Source of the DNA: Methanococcoides burtonii DSM 6242
GTDB taxonomy: Archaea; Halobacteriota; Methanosarcinia; Methanosarcinales; Methanosarcinaceae
Direction of reading: 5' to 3'
NCBI RefSeq assembly: GCF_000013725.1
Contig: NC_007955.1
Location: 1,085,579 to 1,149,578, forward strand
Length of the DNA: 64,000 bases
Numbering within the stretch: the stretch's first letter is position 1; every line of letters begins with the position of its first letter. Position numbers and translations under genes: made by a program. A model generated the notes under the pieces. The model saw nothing but the letters and a program-made list of their open reading frames with translations, was not told the origin of the DNA and did not search any database. This document shows positions 11,693 through 15,419 of the stretch, piece by piece.

Positions 11693-11870
11693 TTGTATAT
11701 CTCCCGAATAACTACAATAAATACTGAATAAGAATATAAATTATAGTATTAAATATTTGTATTCTTTATTGTCAGACATAAAAGTTGGCATTGAGCAAAA
11801 TTATTAAATAAAATATACCACCAATTTGTGTAAGACCGACTGAACATATAAATCATTTAAAAATGTACAA

Positions 11871-11879
11871 CGTATAAAT
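11871..11879 (+). promoter_or_regulatory. TATA box of the znuACB-type operon
   Basis: CGTATAAAT about 25 bases before the palindrome at 11897 and about 120 bases before znuA. It matches the archaeal TATA consensus and predicts transcription start close to 11900. Position is inferred from spacing only. Confidence 0.5.
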
Positions 11880-11896
11880 TCGGATAAAACGTTAAA

Positions 11897-11913
11897 TTTG
11901 GTATCATACCAAA
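11897..11913. promoter_or_regulatory. 17-bp operator-like palindrome upstream of znuA
   Basis: TTTGGTATCATACCAAA is a perfect inverted repeat of two 8-base arms around one centre base. It lies at the predicted start point of the metal ABC transporter operon, where a repressor would block transcription. Form and place fit a metalloregulator of the DtxR/MntR or Fur/Zur classes. The regulator is not in the window. Confidence 0.6.
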
Positions 11914-11994
11914 AATAATATTCCGAACACATACTATAAAATATATTTGAATCAAATATCTCCTGATCTTTTTAAAAAGGATGGAAGAGCACTT

Positions 11995-12927
11995 ATGAGA
12001 ACGATTAATATCCTCACACTAATAATGTTAATATTTACATTATCAGCAACTGGCTGTATAGATAACGGGGGGAGCGCATCGGGGGATGATCGAATTATCG
12101 TTGCCGTTAGCATCCTTCCGCAGCAGGAGTTTGTAGAAAAGATAGCTGGAGATAATGTTGAAACCATACTCATGATCCCGCCAGGTGCCAGCCCTGCAAC
12201 CTATGAGCCAAGCCCGGGGCAGCTAAGAGAACTTACAAAAGCAAGGGCTTTTTTCATAGTTGGATCAGGATTACCTTTTGAAGAAGTATGGCTTGGGAAA
12301 ATTGAAGGAATTAACAAAGACATGCTTATTGTTGATTGTTCAAAAGGGATCAACATTATAGGCACTGAAACGGAAGAGAACACCCATTTGAAAAATATTG
12401 ATGAAAACTTCCAGGAAGACGGAGATCATGCACATGAAGGATCAGACCCCCACATATGGACATCCCCCATTAATGCTAAAATGATGGTAGAGAACACCTA
12501 TCTTGGCCTGATAGAGATAGACCCTGAGAACAAGGACATCTACCTGAACAACAAAGAGAACTACTTAAAAGAGCTCGATGATGCTGATGCAATGATAAGG
12601 GAGAAACTGATGGAAGGGGAAGAGAGAAGCTTCATGACATACCATCCATCGTGGGGTTATTTTGCAGCAGAATACGGGCTCGATATGATAACTATCGAGA
12701 ACGAGGGGAAGGAACCAAGCCCCCAGGATATGCAAAGGGTCATCGATAAGGCAAAGGAAAAGAACATCAGGACCATCTTTGTACAAGCACAGTTCAGCAA
12801 ACAGAGTGCTGAGACCATCGCTTCTGCAATAGACGGAAAAGTGGTGGTGGTTGACCCTCTTGCAAAGGACTATGTGGGGAACTTAGAGATAATAACCGAA
12901 GCATTTTCAGAAGGCATGACCACATAA
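11995..12927 (+). CDS. znuA: Metal ABC transporter substrate-binding lipoprotein (ZnuA-like)
   Basis: About 310 residues, cluster A-I solute-binding protein for Zn or Mn. The signal peptide ends in a lipobox (LSATGC). Metal-binding residues are visible as a PGASPATYEPSPGQ segment (where classic ZnuA has PHxYEP, so one His is missing), HIWTSPINAK, and THYHP-like MTYHPSWGYFA. A short acidic, His-containing loop (EDGDHAHEGSD) sits in the middle. The frame also opens at a TTG (11947), but ATG 11995 gives a proper signal peptide. First gene of znuA-znuC-znuB. The substitution at the first His position may point to Mn or altered affinity. Confidence 0.88.
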   Translation: MRTINILTLIMLIFTLSATGCIDNGGSASGDDRIIVAVSILPQQEFVEKIAGDNVETILMIPPGASPATYEPSPGQLRELTKARAFFIVGSGLPFEEVWLGKIEGINKDMLIVDCSKGINIIGTETEENTHLKNIDENFQEDGDHAHEGSDPHIWTSPINAKMMVENTYLGLIEIDPENKDIYLNNKENYLKELDDADAMIREKLMEGEERSFMTYHPSWGYFAAEYGLDMITIENEGKEPSPQDMQRVIDKAKEKNIRTIFVQAQFSKQSAETIASAIDGKVVVVDPLAKDYVGNLEIITEAFSEGMTT

Positions 12928-12939
12928 TGAGGTGTTCGG

Positions 12940-13689
12940 ATGGGGAATGTGATCGATGTTAAAGATGTATGGTTAAGGTACAAGGACCTGACAGTGCTGG
13001 AAAGTGTGAACCTTTCCATCGAAGAGGGGGATTTCCTTGGAATAATAGGACCGAACGGTGGCGGGAAAAGCACACTATTGAAGGTCATTCTGGGATTGAT
13101 AAAACCACAGAGGGGAACCGTGGAAGTACTCGGTACGACCCCCGAGAAAGCACGCCATCTGATCGGTTATGTACCCCAATACAACCCTTCTAGCCTCGAT
13201 TTTCCAATTAATGTCAGAGAAGTTGTGCTTATGGGACGAATGGGAAAGAAAGGATTGTTCCAAAAATACACAGAAGAAGACCATGCTGCGACCAAGAAAG
13301 CCCTTAAGACCGTGGAAATGCTCGAATATAGTGATCGCCAGATAGGAGAACTCTCCGGAGGGCAGAGGCAGCGGGTTTTCATAGCACGTGCCCTTGTGAG
13401 TGAACCAAAGGTGCTTATTCTGGATGAACCGGTCACAGGTATTGATACCATGATGCAAATGGAATTCTATGAACTGCTTAAGAAGCTCAGGTCCAGGGTC
13501 ACAATAGTAATGGTCTCACATGACATCAGTGCAGTTTCCGTACTCGTGGACAAGATAGCATGCCTTAACGGGAAACTACATTACCACGGTTCAAAGGAAC
13601 TTGTCCCTGAAGACGTCGAGCAGGCTTACGGCTGTCCTGTGGAATTGATAGCCCATGGCGTACCGCACAGGGTATTGCACAAACACTGA
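12940..13689 (+). CDS. znuC: Metal ABC transporter ATP-binding protein (ZnuC-like)
   Basis: ATPase of 249 residues. Walker A GPNGGGKSTLL (about 40), Q-loop in VPQYNPSS, signature LSGGQRQRV, Walker B VLILDEP and switch His in VSHD are all intact. It begins 13 bases after znuA with GAGGTG upstream. The partner of the znuB permease; it powers import of the metal bound by ZnuA. Confidence 0.93.
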   Translation: MGNVIDVKDVWLRYKDLTVLESVNLSIEEGDFLGIIGPNGGGKSTLLKVILGLIKPQRGTVEVLGTTPEKARHLIGYVPQYNPSSLDFPINVREVVLMGRMGKKGLFQKYTEEDHAATKKALKTVEMLEYSDRQIGELSGGQRQRVFIARALVSEPKVLILDEPVTGIDTMMQMEFYELLKKLRSRVTIVMVSHDISAVSVLVDKIACLNGKLHYHGSKELVPEDVEQAYGCPVELIAHGVPHRVLHKH

Positions 13690-13702: not shown

Positions 13703-14530
13703 GTGCTGGAAATATTACAATATGAATTTATGATCAATGCCATCACAGCAGGTATTCTTGCAAGTATCGCATGCGGGATGATCGGAGTATATGTCGTTGT
13801 AAAACGGATAGCACTCATCAGCGGAGGAATTGCACACGCATCTTTTGGCGGAATAGGCATCAGCTATTTTCTTGGGATAAACCCCATAATGGGAGTATTG
13901 CCATTTAGCCTGCTTTCAGCACTTACTATAGGTACTTTCAGCAAACGTACAGATGTTGCAGAAGATACTATCATAGGAATACTCTGGTCAATGGGTATGG
14001 CCATCGGGATTATATTCATAGGCCTGACCCCGGGTTATGCACCTGATCTAATGACATATCTTTTCGGGAATATACTTACAGTCCCACAGTCAGACATCAC
14101 GATGATGCTAGCACTGGATGCCATTATAATCCTGGTGGTGTATGCACTCTATAAAGAGTTCATGGCATTGTGCTATGATGAGGAATTCTCCACCGTTGTA
14201 GGAATACCTGTTGAAAAACTATACCTGCTTTTGCTTTGTCTTATTGCTTTGACAGTTGTAGTGATGATACGCGTGGTGGGACTTATACTTGTAATTGCTC
14301 TTTTGACAATTCCTGCCGCATTGAGCAGGGAATTTACAAACGACATGAGGAAGATGATGTTCTTATCGATCTTCTTCGGTGCTGCCTTTACAATAATTGG
14401 CCTCATGCTATCCTATTACTTTGACATAGCATCAGGTGCGACAATTATCCTTGTGATGTCCTCTTTTTACTTGCTCAACATCATTATCAAAAAATGGAGA
14501 ACTATTTCGGAAAAGCCATTTGACATATAA
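13703..14530 (+). CDS. znuB: Metal ABC transporter permease (ZnuB-like)
   Basis: Integral membrane protein of about 275 residues, ABC-3 family, with about eight helices and the GGIAHASFGGIGI segment typical of ZnuB/MntB. The frame is open from an ATG at 13655 inside znuC, but a GTG at 13703 is chosen because GAGGGG lies just upstream and it removes a 35-base overlap. Last gene of the operon; no terminator hairpin is obvious before the insertion sequence 150 bases on. Confidence 0.92.
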   Translation: MLEILQYEFMINAITAGILASIACGMIGVYVVVKRIALISGGIAHASFGGIGISYFLGINPIMGVLPFSLLSALTIGTFSKRTDVAEDTIIGILWSMGMAIGIIFIGLTPGYAPDLMTYLFGNILTVPQSDITMMLALDAIIILVVYALYKEFMALCYDEEFSTVVGIPVEKLYLLLLCLIALTVVVMIRVVGLILVIALLTIPAALSREFTNDMRKMMFLSIFFGAAFTIIGLMLSYYFDIASGATIILVMSSFYLLNIIIKKWRTISEKPFDI

Positions 14531-14677: not shown

Positions 14678-15419
14678 GACATTGGTATTTAAGTAGAGTT
14701 TATATGATATCAGGGCCTATATTTGTGCATGAACTGTCCCAGGTGCAAGAGCTCCAATCATAAAAAGAACGGTAAAATCGATGGACACCAACGCTACAAA
14801 TGCCATGATTGTGGGTATAGCTATTCAGTAGAGATTAAATCAACTGCTAGCCCCATGTCTGTTAAACGGCAGGCTTTACAACTCTATCTCGAAGGATTAG
14901 GATTTCGTTCAATTGGACGTTTATTAGGAGTTAGCCACGTTTCTGTCCAAAAATGGATAAAGAAGTTTGGTCGTGAATTAGAGGATCTAAAGAGTGAAAA
15001 TGAAATATTGATCGTTGAATTAGACGAAATGCACACTTACGTCGGGAACAAAAAAAATAGTGTTGGATCTGGATTGCTGTTGATACAGATGGAAAAAGGT
15101 TCATCGACTGCTCTTTTGGTAGCAGGGGGACGGAAACAGGACAAAAGCTCTGGAAAAAGTTAAAGGGGAAGGAGATTGGAGAAGTGATGACTGATCACTG
15201 GAGGGCATATGCAGAGTTTCTTCCAGAGTAAATTCATACTCAATCCAAAGCTGAAACATATACTGTTGAAGGATATAACAGCATAATTAGGCACTTTCTG
15301 ACAAGGTTGAGAAGAAAGTCAAAGTGTTATACTAAGAGTCTTGAAATGCTGAAGTACTCTGTTCTTCTTTTGATGAAGTACAGAAATAAAGAGTTAGCTA
15401 TGTTTAATTAACAATATCC
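14678..15419 (+). mobile_element. IS1-like insertion sequence, copy 1 (defective)
   Basis: About 740 bp with imperfect terminal inverted repeats: GACATTGGTATT at the left and, read on the other strand, GGATATTGTTAA at the right. It is highly similar to copy 2 at 17348-18088 in the same orientation. No clear target duplication is seen. The transposase is disabled by at least one TAA (15229-15231). Ends are estimated from where the two copies stop matching. Confidence 0.8.
14729..15414 (+). pseudogene. IS1-family transposase, copy 1
   Basis: The first part (14729-15163 as an open frame) encodes an InsA-like zinc finger (CPRC...CHDCGYSY), a helix-turn-helix (GVSHVSVQKWIKKF) and the first catalytic Asp (VELDEMHTY). 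The rest of the DDE domain (WIWIAVDTDGKR, MTDHWRAY, VEGYNSIIRHFL) lies in the -1 frame. The switch fits an eight-A run at 15050-15057, just before a TAG (15058-15060) in the new frame. A TAA at 15229 replaces a Lys codon present in copy 2, so this copy is inactive. Slippage at A-runs is how bacterial IS1 makes its transposase. Confidence 0.8.

Follow-up and report, generated by a model that had tools for sequence, protein, structure and literature searches.

The closest described system is a zinc regulon predicted for Methanosarcina. Haas et al. 2009 predicted that a DtxR-like regulator, ZntR (MA0022), controls znuABC together with a COG0523 gene (PMC2770081). Three elements of that predicted regulon have counterparts here: the DtxR-like repressor; the znuACB target; and the candidate sites before znu operons (PMC2770081). 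For the COG0523 co-target, candidates occur in some relatives. Two elements differ. The regulator gene of Methanococcoides burtonii is unlinked to the operon, and in relatives genes for ECF (CbiM) transporters and an ArsP_2 permease also carry the box. The main text of that paper mentions neither Methanococcoides nor CbiM (PMC2770081). The control system itself was predicted in 2009 and is not a new idea. What is new here is the Methanococcoides box and the conserved layout of its promoter, a probable site for self-regulation of zntR, a change of metal ligands in the regulator, and the addition of ECF and ArsP_2 genes to the candidate targets. No experiments on zinc control by the ZntR system in archaea were found in the open-licence papers searched.

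A second comparison is offered by the boxes of bacterial Zur, a member of the Fur family. The Desulfovibrio Zur box is a 17-bp palindrome, ATGCAACNNNGTTGCAT (PMC545781). The box described below is likewise an odd palindrome before znuABC; its sequence differs, and the search of the genus turned up no Fur-family protein.

The window analyzed is a 64-kb (64,000-nucleotide) stretch of the M. burtonii DSM 6242 genome. It contains the 17-mer TTTGGTATCATACCAAA, an exact match within the span 11871-11913 that the initial annotation had marked as holding a perfect 17-bp palindrome. The element consists of two perfect 8-bp arms, TTTGGTAT and ATACCAAA, around a single central C. Downstream lies a zinc-uptake operon, znuACB (Table 1), the znuA gene of which is the sole PF01297 match of the genome. 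Its mechanical open reading frame begins at a TTG (11947); the ATG taken as the probable start aligns with an ATG in two other loci (G003a, G008a). None of the 8 NCBIfam models listed has its cut-off reached by ZnuA, and the transporter alone cannot distinguish zinc from manganese. The operon is flanked by a divergent gene for an acetolactate-decarboxylase-type protein with a lipoprotein-like N-terminus (PF03306; 10865-11692) and, 3' of znuB, by an IS1-family transposase reading frame (14723-15163).

Table 1. Features of the znuACB promoter region and the gene of its predicted regulator; positions refer to the window unless a contig is named.
Feature	Position	Strand	Basis or remark
Distal imperfect second site GTTGGCATTGAGCAAAA	11784..11800	.	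113 bp upstream of operator; candidate ZntR site
Conserved TATA box ATATAAAT	11846..11853	+	TATATAA or ATATAAA, 50-52 bp upstream of operator, 13/13; identity 0.57-0.58
Second TATA-like hexamer TATAAA	11873..11878	+	like element at -21 to -29 in 5/13 loci; identity 0.32-0.36; unconserved
Putative ZntR-type operator	11897..11913	.	13/13 genus znuA promoters; peak between-clade identity 0.82
znuA, zinc-binding lipoprotein of ABC importer	11995..12927	+	PF01297, E 1.9e-68 (read from 11947)
znuC, ATPase	12940..13689	+	Pfam
znuB, permease (ABC-3)	13703..14530	+	PF00950, E 2.5e-81
zntR, 145-aa DtxR-family protein	G000:C1:2176042-2176479 (= L192 7043-7480)	minus	unlinked to znu

As a bare palindrome, the 17-mer is unremarkable, because about 1.4 such elements are expected per 64 kb: the window holds 2 perfect 8-1-8 palindromes, and 100 sequences from a first-order Markov model average 1.44 (range 0 to 5). 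The other one (11943-11959) shows no conservation in the promoter alignment and was therefore taken for chance. Elsewhere in the window, no site lies within 2 mismatches of TTTGGTATCATACCAAA, and the exact 17-mer occurs at a single place in the whole genome (2,575,032 bp, one contig).

What counts is conservation. The genus set comprises 13 znuA loci from 10 genomes, three of which have two loci each; none was found in G002, a genome that is 76% complete. All 13 promoters carry TTTGG-N7-CCAAA (10/10) at about the same position, which bears out the proposal of an operator before a metal transporter. In the alignment of these promoters, between-clade identity averages 0.41 and is higher at the operator than anywhere else. 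The strict motif TTTGGYAYNRTRCCAAA, with zero mismatch, gives 11 sites in 8 of the 11 genus genomes, and every one of them stands at znuA. G001 and G006 have it with 1 mismatch; G002, which also yielded no znuA, has no such site.

The promoter geometry modifies one part of the initial annotation, which had placed the palindrome on the transcription start site behind a TATA box. The TATAAA hexamer exists, yet similar elements occur in only 5 of the 13 loci; the box retained in all 13 lies farther upstream. The usual archaeal spacing between TATA box and start is ~25 bp. With the retained box 50-52 bp before the operator, transcription probably begins near 11875, and the palindrome would lie ~20-40 bases downstream of the start, inside the transcript rather than on the start itself.

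A second element of the promoter is also retained. The sequence TTGGNNTNNNGCAAA is found in 13/13 genus loci, in a distal site that starts 111-113 bp before the operator, and alignment segments covering 11785-11813 reach a between-clade identity of 0.72-0.79. The element is kept even where the sequence farther upstream diverges. It also resembles sequences that precede zntR in several relatives (for instance TTTGGCATATGGCAAAC), Methanosarcina-type genomes among them. We take the element for a ZntR site of lower strength; it may instead serve an activator.

Which protein recognizes the operator can be approached from the regulators encoded in these genomes. The initial annotation had pointed to a DtxR- or Fur-type protein. 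Of these, the DtxR type is the most likely, and the Fur option is unlikely because no Fur-family gene (PF01475) was found in any of the 11 genus genomes, including the incomplete G002; Fur or Zur as regulator in this genus was set aside on that ground. Other genomes of the family do have Fur-family genes, which exceed the cut-off in 6 of 40 relatives, and the DtxR C-terminal domain is present in all 40. The M. burtonii genome has three DtxR-type genes, encoding proteins of: 145 aa; 163 aa (L190, MntR-like); and 231 aa, with a FeoA domain (L191). The 145-aa protein is 58-68% identical to the product of a gene located no more than 1 kb upstream of znuA in seven genomes (G013, G014, G016, G019, G020, G023, G024), and a partial gene of this kind is found in G011. 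A further ZntR-type gene precedes znuA by no more than 1 kb, at 30 kb, in the 5,751,492-bp genome G135, where TTTGGCATATCCCCAAA and TTTGGATATATGCCAAA lie upstream of znuA. We take G135 to be M. acetivorans, in which case its ZntR-type gene would agree with MA0022. The strict pattern did not recover MA4381, the published COG0523 target in M. acetivorans: none of the 4 10/10 sites of G135 stands before a COG0523-like gene.

The zntR gene of M. burtonii is unlinked to znu and has an imperfect box of its own, TTTGGCATGTACGCAAA, 30 bp upstream. In the other genus members scanned, a similar site occupies the corresponding position before zntR or one close to it (-47 or -56). This suggests that zntR probably regulates itself. 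Among 46 distinct regions before zntR, all from related species and hence not independent of one another, a site of at least 9/10 occurs in 26 and of 10/10 in 5; with the reversed pattern, 0/46 reach 9/10. The motif itself had served to retrieve three of these regions (L018, L063, L116), and without them the count is 23/43. No site of 9/10 is present in 20 of the 46 regions. In M. burtonii, zntR is convergent to two reading frames of 426 and 214 aa (L192 5111-7480), which we take to be YcaO/TfuA-like; the arrangement recurs in relatives.

The ZntR protein carries PF01325 and PF02742, as membership of the DtxR/MntR family requires, and shares both domains with MntR of Bacillus subtilis and with DtxR/MntR proteins generally. 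Among solved structures, the best sequence match belongs to an MntR (E 1.7e-12). The metal ligands of MntR are D8, E11, H77, E99, E102 and H103. For ZntR, 45 distinct sequences were chosen by an N-terminal sequence pattern, and their residues were counted from GLE. The histidine at the H77 place is kept and E102 is retained in 45/45, whereas the places of E99 and H103 never hold Glu or His, respectively (0/45). In place of the E-x-x-E-H of MntR, ZntR has A/S(N,G,L,K)-x-x-E-G/A/S(Y,T,C), with A/S first in 38/45 and G/A/S last in 42/45; the other two M. burtonii DtxR proteins have C-x-x-E-H. As these two positions are changed, ZntR is a DtxR-family protein and not an MntR. Six residues are invariant in 45/45 sequences, namely H76, C94, E101, C113, H118 and C124, and two are nearly so (H129, 43/45; C132, 42/45). 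A site this rich in Cys and His would suit zinc. The changed ligands would then show a family of manganese and iron repressors turning into a zinc sensor.

Considered together, these observations make it likely that the palindrome serves as operator for the zinc-uptake genes znuACB and that ZntR binds it for zinc-dependent repression. In this mechanism, a dimer of the short 145-aa DtxR-family protein, the counterpart of ZntR, would bind the palindrome. When loaded with zinc, the dimer would occupy this box, a short way past the conserved TATA box, and block RNA polymerase; under zinc shortage, the dimer would leave the box and the importer would be made. Repression may be strengthened from the weaker site 113 bp farther upstream. 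One alternative, which we regard as unlikely, is that L190 or L191, the remaining DtxR proteins, binds the box, which would then respond to manganese or iron. Both are present in the genome; the 163-aa type is closest to MntR (120 bits, against a cut-off of 138) and is encoded 1.2-2.4 kb from a second znuA in three genomes (G003, G008, G009). Against this, the DtxR genes adjacent to znuA in 8 family-level genomes, as well as those that carry boxes, are of the ZntR type, and the surroundings of the 163-aa type in G011, G013, G016, G018 and G023, where the type was assigned by inspection, have no site or a weak one (at most 9/10; 12-13 of 16). At these second znuA loci near the MntR-like gene (L200 in G003, L198 in G008, L196 in G009), no znuB-like match was seen nearby in G003 and G008, and the G009 contig ends just behind the gene.

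The location of the element relative to the conserved TATA box means that it is probably transcribed, and the outer five pairs of the palindrome are invariant. Both would fit a box that acts in RNA, as a small 5'-leader hairpin serving as an attenuator or protein site, rather than as duplex DNA. The inner three pairs speak otherwise, as they are broken without compensation and are paired in 8, 9 and 8 of the 11 distinct genus sites; so do copies of the box placed 20 bp apart before other genes. A role in RNA is accordingly very improbable. A functionless chance palindrome is less probable still, and hardly credible: the number of such palindromes expected per 64 kb would allow for one, yet this one is retained in 13/13 promoters, forms the best-conserved stretch of the region, and is linked to metal genes elsewhere.

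Beyond the genus, the upstream regions of 32 znu loci were scanned: 13 from the genus, 11 from elsewhere in the family, and 8 from other families of the order, with G030 left out and only 330-410 bases of upstream sequence at L195, L218 and L219. Of the 11 other family-level loci, 8 have a site scoring 9/10 or better no farther than 700 bp from znuA. In G019 a 10/10 site lies slightly beyond this reach, and two of the three family loci lacking a site, G018 and G021, have merely 330 and 410 bases upstream. Among the other families of the order, none of the 7 znu loci with upstream DNA has a site; the eighth, L220, has no upstream DNA. At several znu loci, sites are spaced 20, 30 or 40 bp apart. 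Sites 20 bp apart are suited to proteins bound on one face of the DNA.

An exact-pattern scan of a genome collection returned at least 116 loci; among the matches listed, 7 are archaeal by title and 5 are from methanogens. Of the five methanogen matches, the two from Methanoregula (L018, L116) immediately precede zntR, and the one from Methanimicrococcus (L063) is found at zntR and znuA. The other two stand in front of a CbiM gene (L090, M. spelaei) and of an ArsP_2 permease gene (L081). The Thermococcus and Thaumarchaeota matches lie inside coding sequence. For the other 111 of the at least 116 loci, tblastn with eight query proteins gave no match to ZnuA, ZnuB, ZntR, CbiM or ArsP_2; among the matches listed, L102 has a distant COG0523 match 2.9 kb from its site. 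In M. burtonii itself, a wider regulon was not borne out by the four weaker sites inspected: L002 and L003 (2 mismatches), L004 (3 mismatches) and L239 (10/10 TTTGG-N7-CCAAA). Three of these lie in coding sequence, and L002 is far from the start of the following gene.

Co-occurrence of motif and regulator was examined across 159 genomes of the class. After four of the 93 ZntR matches were set aside as another DtxR type (G025, G032, G107, G146; E 2.3e-17 to 2.8e-16; 31-32% identity), the strict motif was found in 16 genomes, which are 16 of the 89 with a ZntR-type protein and 0 of the 70 without (Fisher p 4.8e-5). The test agrees with a link between the two but carries little weight, as kinship confounds it: a single family accounts for 80 of the 89 ZntR genomes and for every one of the 16 with the motif. 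In that family, a ZntR-type match is present in 80 of 81 genomes, including G135, and G012 is the exception. Outside it, the strict motif is absent from all 9 ZntR genomes.

Strict sites outside the genus number 12. Three of them precede cobW/COG0523-type genes, in G104 (the protein confirmed by Pfam) and in G129 and G131 (both by likeness); three precede CbiM genes; one precedes znuA; and one, in G015, fronts a ZnuA-type operon. The relatives have the motif before znuA, an adjacent DtxR-family gene, CobW/COG0523 genes and ECF (CbiM) genes, in agreement with the suggestion that it marks an archaeal zinc regulon. Absence from relatives, or occurrence at unrelated sites only, had been named as the findings that would speak against that suggestion; the motif is present in relatives and stands at metal genes.

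The ECF transporter genes that carry a box or directly follow zntR (L018 2812-5829, L116 2411-5433, L090 5341-7997, L346 6014-8841, L352 4342-6998) encode a CbiM-type protein (PF01891); the CbiQ-type protein and the ATPase were tested by Pfam in L018 only. The models call this system a cobalt transporter, although its placement makes it a candidate zinc importer. A broader interpretation can be offered, to which we give somewhat less than even weight. ZntR would form its own branch within the DtxR family, devoted to sensing zinc, in which the MntR/DtxR ligands are swapped for a Cys/His site (H76, C94, E101, C113, H118, C124), and the methanogen equivalent of Zur. Its regulon would extend beyond znuACB and would include an ECF (CbiM) importer with zinc rather than cobalt as its cargo, and control in Methanococcoides would run through two boxes 113 bp apart. 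Together, the box, the regulator and the candidate targets (znuACB, zntR, the COG0523 gene, the ECF importer and the ArsP_2 permease) make the 2009 prediction directly testable in laboratory strains of Methanosarcina.

Several of the individual loci have features of their own. The G015 operon (L285 3000-6938) is a boxed ABC operon encoding a 719-aa ZnuA-type protein with an insert, in a genome that was blank in the znuA search. In the Methanosarcina locus L081 (92-1231), a gene for a 310-aa ArsP_2-type permease (PF11449) is fronted by two boxes 20 bp apart, one exact and one 9/10. Two of the 12 strict sites are in G019, ~2 kb from zntR (L217 8395-10262): one directly precedes a 486-aa secreted-looking reading frame that contains His in its N-terminal part and matches no Pfam family, and the other lies within the start of a mechanical reading frame. 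Another of the 12, in G163, is within coding sequence. The G137 site (L349 6637-7808), also one of the 12, has an unexpected neighbor, as it stands 30 bp before the start of a gene for a phosphate-type binding protein (PF12849).
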